From the NCBI RefSeq assembly GCF_030817415.1, contig NZ_JAUSZI010000002.1, forward strand, positions 1,736,001 through 1,800,000: a stretch of DNA of 64,000 bases. Direction: 5' to 3'. Both the position numbers and the translations under genes were made by a program. Positions 3,827 through 13,076 of the stretch are shown here, piece by piece. Below the pieces are notes generated by a model. The model made no database searches, was not told the origin of the DNA, and saw only the letters and a program-made list of their open reading frames with translations. This DNA is from Streptomyces umbrinus. Lineage in GTDB: Bacteria > Actinomycetota > Actinomycetes > Streptomycetales > Streptomycetaceae. Each line of letters opens with the position of its first letter. Within the stretch, counting starts at the first letter, position 1.

Positions 3827-4061
3827 CTATCCCGCCAAGTGACCAGGAATCGACCTTCGTTGGCGGCTGCCGACGCGTATGCCCGGGGCAGATGTGACGG
3901 CGAAGTTCGGCGGGGCACTGAGGCGGGGGCGGCTCCGCTGCGTACACACCGTCGGAAAGTCAGGATGTGCGGTCGGCGAACCTGCAAGTCAGGATGGTCG
4001 GTGGGGCAAACTGGCAGGCATGACCGGCACTACCGATTCAGCACCTCTAGGAGCCAACCGT

Positions 4062-5501
4062 ATGAGCACTTCAGCCCAGATCGGCGTCACGGGACTCGCG
4101 GTCATGGGGCGCAATCTCGCCCGTAACTTCGCGCGCAACGGATACGCGGTCGCCCTGCACAACCGGACGGCGGCGCGTACGCACGCGTTGGTGGAGGAGT
4201 TCGGCAGCGAGGGCACCTTTGTCGCGACGGAGACCGCCAAGGAGTTCGTGGCCGCGCTGGAGCGCCCGCGCCGCCTTGTGATCATGGTGAAGGCGGGCGA
4301 GCCGACCGACGCGGTGATCCAGGAGTTCGCCCCGCTCCTGGAGCCCGGCGACATGATCATCGACGGTGGCAATGCCCACTTCGCGGACACCCGGCGCCGG
4401 GAGCGCGAACTGCGCGAGCAGGGCATCCACTTCGTCGGCGCGGGCATCTCCGGCGGCGAGGAGGGCGCGCTGCACGGGCCGAGCATCATGCCCGGTGGTC
4501 CGGTCGAGTCGTACGAGTCGCTCGGCCCGATGCTGGAGAAGATCTCCGCGAAGGCCGCCGACGGCGCGCCGTGTGTCACGCACGTCGGTCCCGATGGCGC
4601 CGGACACTTCGTGAAGATGGTGCACAACGGCATCGAGTACGCCGACATGCAGCTGATCGGCGAGGCGTACCAGCTGCTGCGTGACGTGGCGGGCTACTCC
4701 CCCGCGCAGATCGCGGACATCTTCCGCACCTGGAACACCGGGCGGCTCGACTCCTACCTGATCGAGATCACCGCCGAGGTCCTGTCGCACGTGGACGCGG
4801 CGACGGGCAAGGCCTTCGTGGACGTGGTGCAGGACCAGGCGGAGCAGAAGGGCACGGGGCGGTGGACCGTGCAGATCGCCCTCGACCTGGGCGTTCCCGT
4901 GTCGGGCATCGCCGAGGCCGTCTTCGCGCGGTCCCTGTCGGGCCACACCGAGCTGCGTGAGGCCTCGCGGGGGCTGGCCGGGCCCAAGGCCACGGCGCTG
5001 AGCGAGACCGAGGCCGCGGCCTTCGCCGACCAGGTGGAGCAGGCGCTGTACGCGTCGAAGATCGTGTCCTACACACAGGGCTTCCACGAGATCGCGGCCG
5101 GCAGCGCCGAGTACGACTGGAACGTCGACCTGGGTGCGGTCTCGTCGATCTGGCGCGGCGGCTGCATCATCCGGGCGGCCTTCCTCGACCGGATCCGCGC
5201 CGCGTACGACACACGCGCCGATCTGCCGAGCCTGCTGGCCGACGAGACGTTCGCGCAGGAGATCGCGGCCGCGCAGGACGACTGGCGGGCCGTGCTCGTC
5301 TCCGCCGTGCAGCAGGGGGTGCCCACGCCCGGGTTCGCGGCGGCGCTGGCGTACTACGACGCGTTGCGTGCGGAGCGGTTGCCTGCGGCGCTCACTCAGG
5401 GGCAGCGGGACTTCTTTGGTGCGCACACTTACCGGCGGACCGACCGGGAAGGGTCGTTCCACACGCTGTGGGGCGGGGACCGGTCCGAGGTTGCCGGCTG
5501 A
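4062..5501 (+). CDS. gnd: 6-phosphogluconate dehydrogenase, decarboxylating (NADP-type)
   Basis: A 479-residue enzyme of the oxidative pentose phosphate pathway that converts 6-phosphogluconate to ribulose 5-phosphate with release of CO2. Visible motifs are the Rossmann start GVTGLAVMGRNLARNFARNG, the substrate loop GAGISGGEEGALHGPSIMPGG, HVGPDGAGHFVKMVHNGIEY with the catalytic Lys, and the family signature region DQAEQKGTGRWT. The ATG at 4062 has an AGGAG site 8 bases upstream; the in-frame ATG at 4020 lacks one. Length and the GGEEGA motif fit the homodimeric long form. It is followed by a strong palindromic terminator. Confidence 0.95.
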   Translation: MSTSAQIGVTGLAVMGRNLARNFARNGYAVALHNRTAARTHALVEEFGSEGTFVATETAKEFVAALERPRRLVIMVKAGEPTDAVIQEFAPLLEPGDMIIDGGNAHFADTRRRERELREQGIHFVGAGISGGEEGALHGPSIMPGGPVESYESLGPMLEKISAKAADGAPCVTHVGPDGAGHFVKMVHNGIEYADMQLIGEAYQLLRDVAGYSPAQIADIFRTWNTGRLDSYLIEITAEVLSHVDAATGKAFVDVVQDQAEQKGTGRWTVQIALDLGVPVSGIAEAVFARSLSGHTELREASRGLAGPKATALSETEAAAFADQVEQALYASKIVSYTQGFHEIAAGSAEYDWNVDLGAVSSIWRGGCIIRAAFLDRIRAAYDTRADLPSLLADETFAQEIAAAQDDWRAVLVSAVQQGVPTPGFAAALAYYDALRAERLPAALTQGQRDFFGAHTYRRTDREGSFHTLWGGDRSEVAG

Positions 5502-5927: not shown

Positions 5928-6584
5928 CTACGCCCCGCCCGCCGCGCCGACCATGCCCACCGCGGCCGCTCCCGCAGCGAGGCCGGGGCGCGGGCTGGAA
6001 AGCACCGGCACGGCGGTCGTGGTGAGGTGCTGGGCCGGGGTCATCGAGGCCTGGGCGAGGACGATCGCGTCGGCGTCCGTGACGCTGTCGGCGGCGGACG
6101 CGACCGCGTGGGCGTACGCGTCCATGTCTCCCGCCTCGAAGTGGTCCCAGGCGTCGGCGGCCAGCAGGGTGCGTACGGCCGTCGGGGATCCCGCGCGGGC
6201 GGCCTCCTCCTCGACGAGGGCCACCGTCGGGCCGAGGGTGCTCTCCACCGTGGCGAGCACGACGACACGCGGGCCGGCCGCCACCGCGGCGGCCGCCATC
6301 GGACGGTCCACCCGGAGCACGGGCACACCGGGACGGGCGGCCTCGGCGACCGCGCCGATGGTGGAGCAGGTGCAGAGGACCGCCGCCGCTCCGTCGGCGA
6401 CGGCCCGGTCCAGCATCGCGCGCACCCCGTCGGCCACCGCCTCCGGTCCTTCCGCCCGGGCCCGCTCCAGGAGCTCCTCGGACACGAAGTGCCGCAGTTC
6501 CAGGGCCGGGTGGTCCTCGTCGCGGAGCGCGTCGAAGACGGGGATGTGGACGGGCGAGGTGTGCAGCAGGGCGAGCCGGCCCAT
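5928..6584 (-). CDS. Aspartate/glutamate-racemase-like protein
   Basis: The protein has 218 residues. It begins MGRLALLHTSPVHIPVFDALRD and contains AAVLCTCSTIGAVAEAA, with the first catalytic-type cysteine in a CTCST context, and a later VLAQASMTPA where the second cysteine of two-Cys racemases would be expected but Ala/Ser is found. It therefore belongs to the Asp/Glu/hydantoin racemase superfamily, but racemisation is doubtful and it may be a lyase- or isomerase-like relative. The ATG at 6582-6584 shares one base with the stop of the GNAT gene (TGATG), so translation is probably coupled. The frame could extend upstream to 6680, but that would only overlap the GNAT gene. Confidence 0.7.
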   Translation of the reverse strand: MGRLALLHTSPVHIPVFDALRDEDHPALELRHFVSEELLERARAEGPEAVADGVRAMLDRAVADGAAAVLCTCSTIGAVAEAARPGVPVLRVDRPMAAAAVAAGPRVVVLATVESTLGPTVALVEEEAARAGSPTAVRTLLAADAWDHFEAGDMDAYAHAVASAADSVTDADAIVLAQASMTPAQHLTTTAVPVLSSPRPGLAAGAAAVGMVGAAGGA

Positions 6585-6928
6585 CAGAACCGGCCCGGGT
6601 GGGCGGCCAGCCATGACTTCGCCGCGATCAGCAGCTCGGGGTCGGCCACCGGAGCCTCGTCGGGGTGGCGTGCGGCCCACTTGACGACGTACGGGCAGAG
6701 CGGGGCGACCGGGACTCCCTCGCGGGCCGACATGACGTACAGCTCGCGGGCGAGGGAGCCCGCGATGCCCTTGCCCTCATGGGCGGGCTCCACGATCGTG
6801 TGGACCGGGACGAGCGCGCGACCCGGGCTTTCGAGGACGAAGTACTCGATGTGGCCGACGACTTCGTCACCGGCGTACGCCTCCAGGCGGCCGGCCTCCC
6901 GGTCGTCGCGGATCGCGATCTCGCTCAT
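6584..6928 (-). CDS. Small GNAT-family N-acetyltransferase
   Basis: A 114-residue protein with the pattern GHIEYFVLESPGRALVPVHTIVEP, then the acetyl-CoA pyrophosphate loop HEGKGIAGSLARELY, typical of the short YjdJ/NATD1-like acetyltransferases. A GGAGAG site precedes the ATG. It lies 46 bases after panD, the gap being partly filled by tandem GGATGC hexamers, and is coupled to the racemase-like gene. In some bacteria GNAT proteins (PanZ/PanM) promote PanD self-cleavage; this one is not clearly that family, so a maturation role is speculation from neighbourhood only. Confidence 0.75.
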   Translation of the reverse strand: MSEIAIRDDREAGRLEAYAGDEVVGHIEYFVLESPGRALVPVHTIVEPAHEGKGIAGSLARELYVMSAREGVPVAPLCPYVVKWAARHPDEAPVADPELLIAAKSWLAAHPGRF

Positions 6929-7394: not shown

Positions 7395-7841
7395 GGACAG
7401 ACTCCCGGACCTAGGCTCCCTGCCTGCGTTCTTGCAGGTCAAGGGCTGTTTCCTTACCTTACGAAGAGTCGCGCGCACGGGCAGCATTGGACGGGTTCTC
7501 AGGACTTGCGCTGACCGATTGCCGACTTTCCCGACACGTCATCGGCTCAGTCGACCAGCCTACGCATCGGGCTTGACGGGCAGTCGTGACCTTCGCCACT
7601 GCGAGCCCTCACGTACATGCGCACCTGCCGGAAGCGAGCTCTTCGTGTCCACCAGTTCTTCGCACGGCTCGAAAGGGGCCCAGGCTGGGAGAAATCCCGC
7701 CGGGCCCCCTTCCGTGATCACTGTTCCGGTGGTCCGGGCCGCCTGGCGAGGTGTTACCGCCCCATCGCGGCGTCAGGCCGTTGATGCGCCACAAACCGTC
7801 GCCGCCACCGGTGGTGTACGCGTCTTCGGACGCCGCCGTCT
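7395..7841. other. Gene-poor stretch between panD and the ABC-transporter remnant
   Basis: No frame with coding character or a convincing ribosome site is seen. It holds the panD 5' region, in which a TTGACC hexamer on the minus strand is a possible -35 without a clear -10, and somewhat lower-GC sequence that may be decayed DNA next to the truncated transporter gene. Confidence 0.5.
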
Positions 7842-7990
7842 TCGTCACCCAGGGACTGGAGAACGCCCGGATCGCGGACCGCATCGTCGTCCTCGACCGG
7901 GGTCGTGTCCGTGAAGAGGGCGACTTCCAGGCGCTGATGGAACGCGACGGACTCTTCGCCGAGCTCTACCGCCTCGCCCAGGACCGGTGA
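7842..7990 (+). pseudogene. C-terminal remnant of an ABC transporter ATPase
   Basis: The plus-strand frame reads TQGLENARIADRIVVLDRGR, then VREEGDFQALMERDG and LFAELYRLAQDR followed by TGA. This is the D-loop to C-terminus of an ABC exporter nucleotide-binding domain (equivalent to the H-loop/RADRIVVL-GRIVEEGTHEEL region). Walker A, signature and Walker B are absent, and the sequence upstream has no coding continuity. It is therefore a truncated relic. It borders the lasso-peptide cluster on its downstream side, where an exporter (D) gene is often found, but it is on the opposite strand. Confidence 0.75.
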
Positions 7991-8022
7991 CCGCCGGCCT
8001 CATTGCTACCGAGGCCTCCCTC

Positions 8023-8514
8023 CTACCGACGCTCCTCTGCTACCGGGACGTCTCTGCGGCCGGGGGCCTCAGGGCTGTCCTCCGGCGGCCGCTTCTCCGG
8101 CCGGACGGCCGGCACCACGATCATGCGCCGGTACTCCTCCGGCCGGTGCGGTTCGCCCACCGGGAGGCCGTCGGCCTCCACCCAGGCGTGCGCGCGGAAC
8201 GGTGCCGTCCGCACCCCTGTGCACCAGTCCGGCCAGACTCCGCGCATCCGGCACAGCAATGCGGTGGCCACCGAACGCTGGAGACAGCCCTCGCCGGCGC
8301 AACGCGCGCTGACCGCGACCACTGCCTCGCGGGCAGCGAGCGCCTGCCGGGTGGTGGCGGGGGCGGCCCCGCGCCGGACCACGCACAGGACGCGGCGGAT
8401 GCGGTGCGGCTTGAACGCGACGATCAGCCGGGCGGCGGCCGTGGCGAGAAGGACGGCGGGACGGCGGCGCAGGGGCAGGCAGCTGCGGGTGGCGGGCACC
8501 ATCGGCTGGCTCAT
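8023..8514 (-). CDS. Lasso peptide leader peptidase (B2, transglutaminase-like)
   Basis: A 163-residue protein of the lasso peptide biosynthesis B2 family. The catalytic Cys lies in AGEGCLQRSVATA and the His in FRAHAWVEADGLPV, matching the GxCLxRS ... AHAWVE signature of the transglutaminase-like Cys-His-Asp protease that removes the precursor leader. The N-terminal RRE that single-chain B proteins carry is absent and is supplied by the preceding B1 gene. The ATG overlaps the B1 stop as ATGA (8511-8514), so translation is coupled. Last gene of the cluster. Confidence 0.9.
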   Translation of the reverse strand: MSQPMVPATRSCLPLRRRPAVLLATAAARLIVAFKPHRIRRVLCVVRRGAAPATTRQALAAREAVVAVSARCAGEGCLQRSVATALLCRMRGVWPDWCTGVRTAPFRAHAWVEADGLPVGEPHRPEEYRRMIVVPAVRPEKRPPEDSPEAPGRRDVPVAEERR

Positions 8515-8774
8515 GCGGGCACCACCAGCCGGGACGCCATCAGCGCGCGCGTGATCGAGGCCGTGTCGGCGTCGGCGCGCTCGGCGGTGAGCCGGGGGTA
8601 GGCCTCACACAGTGCGCGGGCCATGTCCGATGGTTCGGCGCCGTCGATGAGCCCGCGCAGGACGAGCGCCGCGGTGCGGTTGAGCTGCCAGTACCGGCCG
8701 GTGACCTCGTCGAGCAGCACCATGCCGTCCGCTGTGTCCGTCGCGCAGACGTCGGATCGCAGGCTCAGGCTCAC
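8511..8774 (-). CDS. Lasso peptide RRE/PqqD-like precursor-binding protein (B1)
   Basis: An 87-residue PqqD-family protein with the motif MVLLDEVTGRYWQLNRTAALVLRG, the winged-helix RiPP recognition element that grips the leader peptide and presents it to the B2 protease. It starts with GTG at 8774, overlapping the cyclase stop as GTGA, and ends overlapping B2 as ATGA. The tight packing indicates equimolar production with the cyclase and protease. Split B1/B2 proteins are the rule in actinobacterial lasso clusters. Confidence 0.9.
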   Translation of the reverse strand: MSLSLRSDVCATDTADGMVLLDEVTGRYWQLNRTAALVLRGLIDGAEPSDMARALCEAYPRLTAERADADTASITRALMASRLVVPA

Positions 8775-10654
8775 GGCGCTCCTTCAGTGATCGCGGTGCT
8801 CGGCGGGCGGATGTGCGCGGGACGGGCACGGAGCCAGATCTCGCTGCCCAGGCTGGAGCTGAGGGAGCGCAGCCCCTCCGGGGTGGGATGCACCCCGAGC
8901 AGGGACGCACGGACGGCGGCGTCGTCGATCAGTCCGGCTCGGCCGAGCCGCGAGCCGTCGAAGAGCTCGACCAGGTCGGCGCGGTTGTGGCGCAGACTGA
9001 CGTGGAAGTCCGTGCTGTACTCGCCCTTGGTGTGCCGGCGCAGGACGTCGTCGGGCACGATGCCGCGCATCGCCTCGGCGAGCACCGGCTTGTACCGGCC
9101 GGGCGTGCTGCGCTCGGCCACGCGGATGGCCAGGGCCGCCTCGATCACTTGGTCGTCGAGGTAGGGCGCGGCCTGACCCAGGCCTCTGCGGGAGGTCACC
9201 TGATCCAGTTGCCGCAGGCCACGCCCACCGGTCCGTACGCACGCCAGTGCCGTGTGCTGTCCGCGCTGGGGCGCGAGCGGCTCGGCGCTCTCGGCGGCTT
9301 CCCGGAGCAAGCTCCGCACGGCCGCGGCCGCGTCGCGGGTCGCCCACGGCGGCATGCGCGACTCCACGCCCCATGCCGTCGAGGGCGCTCCGCGGACCAG
9401 GGCCGACGAGGACGGCCCGGCGGCGGTGAGGCCCTGTGCCCATGCGGCCAGCCACTGGCCGAACGTCCTGCGGTCGGCGAGCTGCCGCAGCAGTTGTCCG
9501 AGCGGCCAGTGCTGGGAGGCGCGTTGCGTACGGATACGGGCATACGCCGCCAGCGGATGGCGTCGGACGTGGTCGTGCAGGTGTGAGGGGAACGTGCTGA
9601 ACAACTCGTCTCCGCCGCCGCCCATCAGGTGCAGGCGTGACCCCCGGCCGGTCATCAGGCGGCAGAGCGCTGCCATCCTGGCGCCGTCGCGGACCCATGG
9701 CCCTGGCTCGTCGGTGGGGACGGCGTCGCCGGTGAGAGCCGGCAAGTCGCTGTACCACAGGGGCCATTGGTCGGGGGCGGGCGTGACGTGCTCGCTGCCG
9801 GGAAGCCGGGCGGCGGCGCGGGCAGCCCATGCCGCGTCGTCGTTCTCCGGGTCGAGGCTTCGCCAGCCCAGCGTCACCAGTTTGGCTCCGGCCGGGCGGG
9901 TCCGCTCCTGCTCGTGTGCGGTCAGGAAGCACAGGCTGGTGGAGTCCAGGCCGCCCGACAGTTCCGCGCTCACCGTGCCCCCGTCGGCCGTGCACGCTCC
10001 CACCGCGGCGGTCAGCGCCGCACGCACCGCGGGCACTCCCTCCCGCCAGGGACGCTGCGGCTCCGGCGGAGTCCACCACCGCTGGGTCCGGACCCGCCCG
10101 TCCGCGTCGATCAGCAGACTGTCGAAGGACGGAAGTGCTTCCACGCCCTGCCACACACAGCGGTCGTCCAGCGGATAGGGAAGCGGCGAGGCGAGCAGGT
10201 GAGCGGCGAGGAGCCGTTCGTCGGGAGCCGCACCGGTCACGGCCGCGAGCCGGTCCGACCGGTCGGCGGCCACGGTCACTCCGCCCACCCGCGCGTGAAA
10301 GAGCCGTCGCACCCCGGACGCGGTCCCCCGGGCCCGCACCGAACCGTCGACGGAGGCGATGAGGTGGAAGCTTCCAGGCAGCCCGTGGGCGACCGCCTCC
10401 ACGTCCGCGATGTCCCGCAGCCGTCGCGCTCGCGCGGACAGCGCCTCGACGGTGACCGGGCAGCGCCCGATCACCGCGACTCGCCGCGCCCCTGCCGCGC
10501 CCACCGTCACCAGTCCGTCCGGCCAACTGCCCAGCAGCCACGGCCGACCGGAGTGGTGAGCGATGGTCTCGGTGGCCCAGGGGCGCAGGAGCCGCGCCGC
10601 GGCCACGCCGGATTCACCGTCCGGAAGGATCGTGAACCACACGTCACCGCTCAT
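8771..10654 (-). CDS. Lasso peptide isopeptide-forming cyclase (C, asparagine-synthetase-like)
   Basis: A 627-residue class B asparagine-synthetase homologue. The N-terminal glutamine-amidotransferase-like half lacks the Cys2 nucleophile (it starts MSGDVWFTILPDGE), as in lasso cyclases. The C-terminal ATP pyrophosphatase half has the PP-loop SGGLDSTSLCFL at roughly residues 235-246 and LMGGGGDELFSTF. It adenylates the ring Glu/Asp side chain of the core peptide and closes the macrolactam with the free Gly1 amine. The ATG at 10654 follows the precursor stop by 53 bases containing a small hairpin. Start chosen as the first ATG giving the usual N-terminus. Confidence 0.92.
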   Translation of the reverse strand: MSGDVWFTILPDGESGVAAARLLRPWATETIAHHSGRPWLLGSWPDGLVTVGAAGARRVAVIGRCPVTVEALSARARRLRDIADVEAVAHGLPGSFHLIASVDGSVRARGTASGVRRLFHARVGGVTVAADRSDRLAAVTGAAPDERLLAAHLLASPLPYPLDDRCVWQGVEALPSFDSLLIDADGRVRTQRWWTPPEPQRPWREGVPAVRAALTAAVGACTADGGTVSAELSGGLDSTSLCFLTAHEQERTRPAGAKLVTLGWRSLDPENDDAAWAARAAARLPGSEHVTPAPDQWPLWYSDLPALTGDAVPTDEPGPWVRDGARMAALCRLMTGRGSRLHLMGGGGDELFSTFPSHLHDHVRRHPLAAYARIRTQRASQHWPLGQLLRQLADRRTFGQWLAAWAQGLTAAGPSSSALVRGAPSTAWGVESRMPPWATRDAAAAVRSLLREAAESAEPLAPQRGQHTALACVRTGGRGLRQLDQVTSRRGLGQAAPYLDDQVIEAALAIRVAERSTPGRYKPVLAEAMRGIVPDDVLRRHTKGEYSTDFHVSLRHNRADLVELFDGSRLGRAGLIDDAAVRASLLGVHPTPEGLRSLSSSLGSEIWLRARPAHIRPPSTAITEGAP

Positions 10655-10681
10655 GGCACGTTACCCATCATGTCCTGTCGG

Positions 10682-10705
10682 TCTCGGTCTCAGTTGGGGC
10701 CGAGA
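10682..10705 (-). terminator. Small hairpin between lasso precursor and cyclase genes
   Basis: TCTCGG at 10682-10687 pairs with CCGAGA at 10700-10705 across a 12-base loop, starting three bases after the precursor stop. A weak stem here could act as an attenuator or mRNA 3'-end stabiliser that gives more precursor than enzyme; this role is inferred. Confidence 0.4.
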
Positions 10706-10707
10706 TA

Positions 10708-10827
10708 TCACTCGTAGGGCGGGAATCCGCCCTCGTAGTGCGCGCCCAGGGCCTCACCGCGGGTCAGCTCGGCGAAGTCACCGACTTCCACCATGGCCGG
10801 CGGTTCGTACACTTCGTCCTGCTGCAT
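10708..10827 (-). CDS. Lasso peptide precursor (A)
   Basis: A 39-residue peptide. The leader starts MQQDEVYEPPAMVEVGDF and contains the YxxP motif (YEPPAMVEVG) recognised by B1. It ends AELTR, placing Thr at position -2 of the core as in almost all lasso precursors. The predicted core is GEALGAHYEGGFPPYE: Gly1, Glu9 as ring acceptor (nine-residue macrolactam) and a seven-residue tail with Phe12 and Tyr15 as possible plugs. GGGAGGA lies 5 bases before the ATG. It is the first gene of the A-C-B1-B2 order. The core does not match any lasso peptide I recall. Confidence 0.9.
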   Translation of the reverse strand: MQQDEVYEPPAMVEVGDFAELTRGEALGAHYEGGFPPYE

Positions 10828-11060
10828 GCAAGTCCTCCCTTACATCCGCTGATGGCGTGGAACCCACACCGCTGCGAAAATTGCCCATGGCATTTCGGCA
10901 CTACGCCGACCTGCGGTATCTCCCACCCGATGGAGTGAATCCCTCCCCGCCACGGCATGGCGCAGGAGCTCCCGTGGTGCGGGCGCGAGGTGCTGGAGCT
11001 CGTCGAGGGCGGCGGCTGCCAGTTGGACCTTCGAGAAGAGCGCGGTGCGGTGAGAGGGTC
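10828..11060. promoter_or_regulatory. Upstream region of the lasso operon
   Basis: This 233-base gap holds the 5' region of the precursor gene on the minus strand. Apart from the GGGAGGA ribosome site at the left end I see no clear -35/-10 pair or operator. A short minus-strand frame enters from the ABC-transporter end but shows no conserved features. Confidence 0.4.
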
Positions 11061-11109
11061 GCGTCCCGGGAAGCAGGGACGCGCCGACGCCGTCAGGTAC
11101 GGCGGCGTC
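11061..11109 (-). terminator. Double hairpin after the ABC exporter gene
   Basis: GCGTCCC (11061-11067) pairs with GGGACGC (11076-11082), and GACGCCG (11086-11092) pairs with CGGCGTC (11103-11109). The second stem ends 12 bases before the stop codon side of the exporter gene. Confidence 0.6.
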
Positions 11110-11120
11110 GTGCGCGGCGC

Positions 11121-13076
11121 CTATGCCACTGCCTCCTCCGCCACAGCGATCTCCGTCACGCCGTCCTCGGTCACGCCGTTGTCGGTGGCGTCCGCCTCGG
11201 TCCCGTCGGCCCGTGCCGGTTTCTCGAACTGGGTCCGGTACAGCTCCGCGTACCGCCCGTTCGCCGTGAGGAGTTCCTCGTGGGTGCCGCGTTCCGCGAT
11301 GCGGCCGGCCTCGACGACGAGGATCTGGTCGGCGGCCCGTACCGTCGAGAGGCGGTGGGCGATGACGAGTGCGGTGCGGCCCTGGAGTGCCTCGGCGAGT
11401 GCCTCCTGTACGGCGGCCTCGGAGGTGTTGTCCAGGTGGGCCGTCGCCTCGTCGAGGACGACCACCCGCTGGCGGGCCAGGAGCAGCCGGGCGATGGTCA
11501 TGCGCTGGCGTTCGCCGCCGGAGAGGCGGTAGCCGCGTTCGCCGACGACCGTGTCGAGGCCGTCGGGCAGGGAGTTCACGAGGTCGTCGAGGCGGGCCCG
11601 GCGCAGGACGTCCCACAGTTCCTCCTCGTCGGCGTCGGGCCTGGCGAGGAGCAGGTTGGCGCGGACCGAGTCGTGGAAGAGGTGGCCGTCCTGGGTGACC
11701 ATTCCGAGTGTGGCCCGCATCGACTCGGCGCTCAGGTCACGGACGTCGACGCCGCCGATGCGTACGGAGCCCTCGTCGGTGTCGTACAGCCGTGGCAGCA
11801 GCGAGGCGACCGTGGACTTGCCGGCGCCGGACGAGCCGACGAGGGCGACGGTCTGGCCGGGTTCGGCGCGGAAGGAGATGCCGTGCAGGACCTCGGCGCC
11901 GCCGCGGGTGTCGAGTGCGGCGACCTCCTCCAGGGAGGCGAGGGAGACCTTGTCGGCGGACGGGTAGGCGAATCGGACGTCGGTGAACTCGACGGAGGCC
12001 GGGCCGTCGGGGACCGCGCGGGCGTCCGGCTTCTCGTCGATCAGCGGCTTCAGGTCGAGGACCTCGAAGACCCGCTCGAAGCTGACCAGGGCACTCATGA
12101 CCTCCACGCGGGCACCGGCGAGCGAGGTCAGTGGCGCGTACAGACGGGTCAGGAGCAGGGCCAGCGAGACGACCGCGCCCGGTTCCAGGCTGCCGCGCAG
12201 GGCATACCAGCCGCCGAGTCCGTAGACGAGGGCGAGTGCGAGGGCGGAGACGAGGGTCAGGGCCGTGATGAACGCGGTCTGAGCCATCGCCGTGCGCACC
12301 CCGATGTCCCGCACCCGCCGGGCACGCACCGCGAACTCCGCGGACTCCTGGCCCGGCCTGCCGAAGAGCTTGATCAGGGTGGCGCCCGGTGCGGAGAAGC
12401 GCTCGGTCATCCGGGTGCCCATGGACGCGTTGAGGTCGGCCGCCTCGCGCTGGAGCTTCGCCATCCGGCTGCCCATCCGGCGGGCGGGCACCACGAACAC
12501 CGGGAGGAGTACGAGGGCGAGCAGGGTGATCTGCCAGGACAGGGTGAGCATCACGGCGAGGGTGAGCAGCAGGGTCACGAGATTGCTCACCACTCCGGAG
12601 AGGGTGTTGCTGAACGCCCGCTGGGCGCCGATCACGTCGTTGTTGAGTCGACTGACGAGCGCGCCCGTACGAGTGCGTGTGAAGAACGCGACCGGCATGC
12701 GCTGTACATGATCGAAGACCGCTGTCCGCAGATCCAGGATGAGTCCTTCGCCGAGGTTCGCCGAGAGCCAGCGGCCCACCAGTCCGATCGCCGCCTCCGC
12801 GAACGCGATCAGGGCGATGAGCAGGGCGAGTCGTACGACAGTGCTCTCGTCGCCGCCGGACACGATCGCGTCCACGACGCGTCCGGCGAGGACCGGGGTG
12901 GCCACGGCGAGCAGCGCCGTCACCACACTGAGCACCACGAACTGCGCGATTCGGCGGCGGTGCGGGCGGGCAAATCCGGCAATGCGACGCAGGGTCGCTC
13001 GGGCGAAGGGGCGGCGTTCCTGCTCGGCGTTCATGACGCTGTGGAGCTGCGTCCAGGCTGTGGTCTCCATACTCAT
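11121..13076 (-). CDS. ABC exporter, fused permease-ATPase, predicted SoxR-regulated
   Basis: A 651-residue half-transporter. Six membrane helices between about residues 40 and 330 are followed by a nucleotide-binding domain with Walker A GSSGAGKST, Q-loop MVTQDGHLF, signature LSGGERQRM, Walker B RVVVLDEAT and H-loop IAHRLS. The C-terminal tail is Asp/Glu/Ala-rich. It is a type IV (MsbA-like) exporter that would work as a dimer. The ATG at 13076 (or 13070) is chosen; the open frame extends far upstream across its own promoter. Its promoter has a SoxR-type operator, fitting export of redox-active compounds. It could also serve the adjacent lasso peptide, which has no other intact exporter. Confidence 0.85.
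   Translation of the reverse strand: MSMETTAWTQLHSVMNAEQERRPFARATLRRIAGFARPHRRRIAQFVVLSVVTALLAVATPVLAGRVVDAIVSGGDESTVVRLALLIALIAFAEAAIGLVGRWLSANLGEGLILDLRTAVFDHVQRMPVAFFTRTRTGALVSRLNNDVIGAQRAFSNTLSGVVSNLVTLLLTLAVMLTLSWQITLLALVLLPVFVVPARRMGSRMAKLQREAADLNASMGTRMTERFSAPGATLIKLFGRPGQESAEFAVRARRVRDIGVRTAMAQTAFITALTLVSALALALVYGLGGWYALRGSLEPGAVVSLALLLTRLYAPLTSLAGARVEVMSALVSFERVFEVLDLKPLIDEKPDARAVPDGPASVEFTDVRFAYPSADKVSLASLEEVAALDTRGGAEVLHGISFRAEPGQTVALVGSSGAGKSTVASLLPRLYDTDEGSVRIGGVDVRDLSAESMRATLGMVTQDGHLFHDSVRANLLLARPDADEEELWDVLRRARLDDLVNSLPDGLDTVVGERGYRLSGGERQRMTIARLLLARQRVVVLDEATAHLDNTSEAAVQEALAEALQGRTALVIAHRLSTVRAADQILVVEAGRIAERGTHEELLTANGRYAELYRTQFEKPARADGTEADATDNGVTEDGVTEIAVAEEAVA

Follow-up and report, generated by a model that had tools for sequence, protein, structure and literature searches.

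A Streptomyces umbrinus lasso-peptide operon with a precursor that ends before core residue 17

Does a lasso-peptide precursor with a short, acidic and unfamiliar core announce a new peptide, or can such a core arise in another way? The question is raised by a locus of Streptomyces umbrinus that lies in the window, that is, the whole 64,000-nucleotide stretch of DNA that was analysed (G000:C2:1736001-1800000, from a 12.4-Mb genome in 3 contigs). The original prediction had described positions 8023 to 10827 as a complete lasso-peptide cluster, with a 39-residue precursor and a 16-residue core unlike any familiar one.

The operon and its precursor

The features of the locus, with profile scores where available, are the following.

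10834-10839, minus strand: GGGAGG, likely ribosome-binding site of A, by inspection of the sequence upstream of A
10708-10827, minus strand: precursor gene A, 39 codons plus TGA; leader NF033521, 37.6 bits (cut-off 19)
10708-10710, minus strand: TGA stop at the site of the core Trp17 codon, from codon-level comparison with 11 close relatives
10690-10707, minus strand: untranslated core remnant, codons for Y-L-G-P-N and then the old stop, from codon-level comparison
8771-10654, minus strand: cyclase C (asparagine-synthase-like), 627 aa, open, no stop
8511-8774, minus strand: B1, precursor-recognition (PqqD-like) protein, 87 aa; NF033530, 87.0 bits (cut-off 70)
8023-8514, minus strand: B2, leader peptidase (transglutaminase-like), 163 aa; NF033537, 114.5 bits (cut-off 33); PF13471, 94.3 bits
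7833-7990, plus strand: D remnant, 3′ end of a convergent ABC transporter, last 52-56 codons, the remainder missing
7833-10987: block homologous to the lasso loci of relatives, by blastn

The gene order A-C-B1-B2, on the minus strand, is as had been proposed. The genes were also said to be joined by ATGA/GTGA overlaps, which holds for C and B1 (GTGA) and for B1 and B2 (ATGA) but not for A and C, as these are separated by 53 nt. The scores of the leader, B1 and B2 against their NCBIfam models and that of C against Pfam PF00733 (Asn_synthase; 140.3 bits, cut-off 21) are all over the cut-offs and thus place the operon beyond chance. Judged by this gene content, with a precursor that carries the leader motif, an open C and both B1 and B2, the stretch from 8023 to 10827 is a genuine Streptomyces lasso-peptide operon, ordinary in kind.

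Translation of A gives MQQDEVYEPPAMVEVGDFAELTRGEALGAHYEGGFPPYE, a peptide of 39 residues with the YxxP motif and Thr at -2, just as it had been read. It divides into the leader MQQDEVYEPPAMVEVGDFAELTR and a predicted core, GEALGAHYEGGFPPYE, of 16 residues. The leader, the cleavage site and the ring between Gly1 and Glu9, all of them predictions, fit both the window and its relatives. For the cyclised 16-mer, a mass of 1674.731 Da was computed, with [M+H]+ at 1675.739 and [M+2H]2+ at 838.373, and the earlier values of 1674.73 Da and 1675.74 are right for the peptide as read. The predicted m/z of 1675.74 would apply, however, only if this truncated peptide were still matured.

The core in related loci

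A search with C covered 61 genomes, including its own, and found a match in 35 of them at E ≤ 0.001; across the genus, 392 genomes were drawn, again including its own, and 117 had a match at E ≤ 1e-100. A single scan of the named genome collection for loci returned 11 loci. The close set used here consists of 11 distinct loci (L026, L049-L057 and L059), whose cyclases are about 72-93% identical to that of the window. In every one of them, the precursor has 45 residues and the core 22. All 11 cores follow the consensus GEA(L/T)GAxYEGGFPPYEWYLGP(N/S), starting with GEALGA in ten cases and GEATGA in one and ending in EWYLGP(N/S), and five are exactly GEALGAHYEGGFPPYEWYLGPN. The 16 core letters of the window are found unchanged in six of the close loci, while variants of them occur in the other five and in eight further protein clusters.

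What sets the window apart is the codon for core position 17, which is TGG in all 11 close loci and TGA in the window. Around the TGA, the frame of the window (row L005) reads E*YLGPN*, so that both the lost YLGPN codons and the original stop can still be recognised. When the 45-residue precursor of a relative was compared with the genome of the window, it gave one match, the window locus, which is 93% identical over residues 1-45 and has one internal TGA. No second lasso cluster or precursor copy that could act as a rescue was found in this genome, where PF13471, the family of B2, is matched only once and the precursor also once at E ≤ 0.1. The protein database yielded 12 precursor clusters. 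One is a 29-residue fragment from the end of a contig; the other 11 have 45 residues and Trp17, and of these, three duplicate sequences of the loci and eight are further variants. No 39-residue form was seen as a row of its own among these clusters, although it could hide within one.

Against the 22-residue family core with Glu9 and Trp17, the window has the Glu9 and fails at Trp17, as its core ends at residue 16. By alignment, the core that had been taken as new is the truncated front part of the family core, equal to residues 1-16 of a 22-residue core known from the loci of relatives, and its C-terminal Glu is there because of the stop codon at Trp17. The description of the cluster as complete does not stand either, given that the precursor lacks the last six core residues of the family through the stop codon and that D is reduced to 52-56 codons.

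The conservation of position 17 was examined in 26 precursors: those of the 11 close loci, eight from protein clusters (P0005-P0012, found by precursor only) and seven from five loci with cyclases 52-62% identical. Dropped before the count were L031 (its cyclase is 49% identical, and its core, predicted at about 14 residues, has no position 17), every other locus with a cyclase below 52%, the duplicates by contig or sequence (L006, L025, L028, L058, L060, L062, L063 and P0002-P0004) and the contig-end fragment (P0013). All 26 aligned cores have an aromatic residue at position 17 (Trp in 23) and Glu or Asp at position 9; the 16-mer of the window stops one residue short of position 17. An aromatic residue placed eight positions past the ring-closing one suggests itself as the lower steric lock. 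As position 17 is aromatic throughout, the stop probably takes away the residue that locks the tail in the ring.

The reading that we favour, and that we hold to be fairly probable, is that the window carries a recently truncated and probably non-productive allele of an annotated lasso family. The family product would be a 22-residue lasso with a ring from Gly1 to Glu9, and a tail of 13 residues in which Trp17-Tyr18 would be likely to form the lower steric lock. In the window, the TGA at the Trp17 codon shortens the precursor to 39 residues. Leader binding and cleavage by B1 and B2 would be expected to go on as before, and the freed 16-mer would be devoid of the predicted lock residue. With this residue gone, no stable threaded product is expected, or else a ring that is poorly formed or unthreads, so that the normal product would be lost. 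The role of Trp17 as the lock is suggested by its conservation, and Tyr15 or Phe12 could lock the short form.

Such a substitute lock is part of another reading, in which the shortened precursor is functional and yields a 16-residue lasso with a 9-residue ring, a 7-residue tail and Tyr15 (or Phe12) as the lock. Lasso peptides of 15-16 residues exist, the four genes A, C, B1 and B2 are open, and the leader motif, the cleavage site and the predicted Gly1-Glu9 ring are intact. Nevertheless, none of the 26 precursors ends at residue 16 or has a non-aromatic position 17, and the old tail codons behind the stop are unchanged in protein sequence. Moreover, PMC13352647 reports that the tail can be deleted no further than to a point below the lower lock. 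A functional 16-mer is, on balance, unlikely. It is quite unlikely that the window holds a natural tail-truncation allele in which one stop reduced the lasso from 22 to 16 residues, with the shorter form still threaded by unchanged enzymes and Tyr15 as its new lock. Finally, the TGA might be partly read through, with some 45-residue precursor still being made, as the codons past the stop stay in frame to the old stop; but a recent nonsense change explains this remnant without readthrough, which we consider very improbable.

The stop codon and the condition of the operon

The change that creates the stop lies at 10704-10709, where the window has GATATC and L050, together with several other close relatives, has GGTACC. 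With respect to L050, the two differences are transitions placed symmetrically in a palindrome, and because of this symmetry a systematic base-calling artefact was tested for. If the stop were an assembly or base-calling error, the living strain would make a 22-residue lasso as in its relatives. Such a symmetric pattern could result from a modified base that is misread on both strands; in the genome, GGTACC has about half the count of the same pattern read backwards, used as a control (2155 against 4164), and the TGA rests on one assembly, without reads, in which a single local error at the stop is possible. By contrast, the sequence is still read those 2155 times, and it is only slightly under the Markov expectation both in 464 kb of this genome (81 found, 93.5 expected) and in 199 kb from relatives (40 found, 45.1 expected). 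Neither GATATC (11 against 10.8 in the genome sample; 6 against 6.0 in the relatives) nor the half-changed forms in the same 464 kb (41 against 40.6, and 42 against 44.0) are in excess. In addition, Tyr18 is encoded by TAT in L026, L028, L055 and L057 as well, and one of the two changes may thus be no more than synonymous drift. With counts near expectation and no excess of GATATC, a genome-wide miscall of GGTACC is unsupported as the cause of the stop, and an error of whatever kind seems improbable to us.

For the favoured reading, that of a recent truncation, the state of the enzymes is relevant. C, B1 and B2 are open, and for this reason the truncation looks recent. In a codon tree of the cyclases, the window is sister to L051 of S. 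phaeochromogenes NRRL B-1248 (support 0.993). The dN/dS of the cyclase is 0.25 between these two and 0.20-0.33 against ten relatives, in a table from which L059 was excluded for its frameshifted cyclase. Synonymous and non-synonymous changes amount to 35.5 and 17.5 on the window branch, 27 and 18 on that of L051, and 28.5 and 16.5 on that of L050. On these counts, the window branch shows no sign of relaxed selection, in a test that is weak because the L050 branch looks like that of the window although the cyclase of L050 carries a stop. The lack of relaxation fits a recent truncation, but also a shortened peptide that still works, and it counts in favour of a functional 16-mer. Under a recent truncation, the operon, with its enzymes open, would be at an early stage of decay.

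Broken cyclases are also seen elsewhere in the family. In L050 (Streptomyces sp. ISL-98; 10001-11881), there is a stop at codon 472 of the cyclase, and in L059 (S. griseocarneus; 10001-11902) the cyclase is frameshifted; the 45-residue precursor is intact in both. P0056, a cyclase of 402 aa from S. diastatochromogenes, may add a third example. In general, C is open over the examined stretch in nine of the 11 relatives, and draft quality may be the source of some of these breaks.

The DNA homology of the operon block spans 7833-10987 by blastn, and the flanks of the relatives are unmatched on both sides. At its lower end, window positions 7820-7987 match residues 587-642 of the L052 transporter at 84%. 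D, which is convergent and lies beyond B2, runs in a single frame over nearly its full length in three of the 11 close loci (L052, L054 and L057), is split over frames in L049 and L055, and is reduced to its 3′ part, with differing end points, in L050, L051 and L053; it was not found at the locus in L026 (short flank), L056 and L059. Elsewhere in the genome of the window, among the matches listed (150 of 284 candidates scored), nothing above 45% identity was found besides the 3′ scrap of D. As D is missing or broken in eight of 11 relatives that have an intact precursor, its loss says little about activity. The truncation of D can be read as a sign of erosion, and is no proof of a dead operon. 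The homology breakpoints of the sisters, the window and L051, are 20 bp apart. Taken over the set, four lineages (L050, L051, L053 and the window) each have D cut at a different point, as if it had been repeatedly lost from the same end.

A neighbouring ABC transporter that ends at 11121 on the minus strand was considered as the lasso exporter and rejected: it is 28-30% identical to the D of relatives, and it has copies, 85% and 80% identical, in G009 and G012, where the best cyclase match is 1.1e-8 and none, respectively. In G011, homologues of this gene and of the flanking GNAT gene (window 6584-6928) are separated by about 1 kb that contains no lasso match (L091), against about 4.2 kb in the window. 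From this short spacing, the lasso block looks inserted in the window.

Place among known lasso peptides

Proteins of 45 residues from S. lasiicapitis, S. spectabilis, S. phaeochromogenes and others are annotated by NCBI as "lasso RiPP family leader peptide-containing proteins". They share the leader type of the window, the first 16 residues of their core are the same or similar, and the close loci share the A-C-B1-B2 order. In contrast to the window, which ends before Trp17, their core is six residues longer (mostly WYLGPN/S).

Other known systems are more distant. The B1 of the window matches the solved TfuB1 (PDB 6jx3, E 1.8e-13), which we take to belong to the fusilassin/fuscanodin system; it is the sole part with a solved sequence relative, and the cyclase and B2 had no PDB match at the thresholds used. 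For fusilassin, PMC13352647 gives a native 9-residue ring. The best NCBIfam model for the window cyclase is NF033561 (albusnodin/ikarugamycin cyclase), and NF033525, also of the albusnodin family, is second for the precursor. Membership of that family was rejected, as the scores of cyclase (249.8 bits) and precursor (20.6 bits) are below the cut-offs of 300 and 30; the window core also lacks a Lys to acetylate. Loci with cyclases 46-48% identical to that of the window encode precursors that end in GNDRL(M/I)(L/F)SKN, presumably citrulassins, which differ from the window in core, ring and tail.

Two further loci present unusual precursor arrangements. In G035 (L007, about 4045-4530; L062, about 11265-11750), three different tandem precursors follow B2, with the cores GLSSGNVMENGVFPYVWYILAAG, GCTYGYNLEDAGAGPWYCYAAG and GYPPGAWMDGSAPYPYYSPFAG, and hence one enzyme set may mature three cores. 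In L049, an inverted 116-bp copy of the precursor start lies at the contig end (1-116) and faces the real precursor near 987; this copy is either a second precursor or an assembly artefact.

Core fragments and variants had no match in the open-licence PMC full texts, a scope that does not extend to supplements such as RODEO lists. In the excerpts of open-licence literature retrieved for lasso peptides together with five Streptomyces species, no paper naming the GEALG...WYLGP family was found, and among the matches listed for nonsense or pseudogene lasso precursors there was no text with "lasso peptide". Thus, the 22-residue family, with its predicted Gly1-Glu9 ring and aromatic position 17, is without a match in the open-licence papers searched, and NCBI already annotates several members as lasso precursors.

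If the tail-truncation allele were real, it would be a natural experiment on the minimum length of a lasso tail. Under the reading favoured here, mass-guided searches that start from the open reading frame of the window would target the wrong molecule, and the product to seek, in relatives with the core GEALGAHYEGGFPPYEWYLGPN, has [M+H]+ 2406.08. The lesson is that the core of a RiPP precursor should be called new only after comparison with close relatives.
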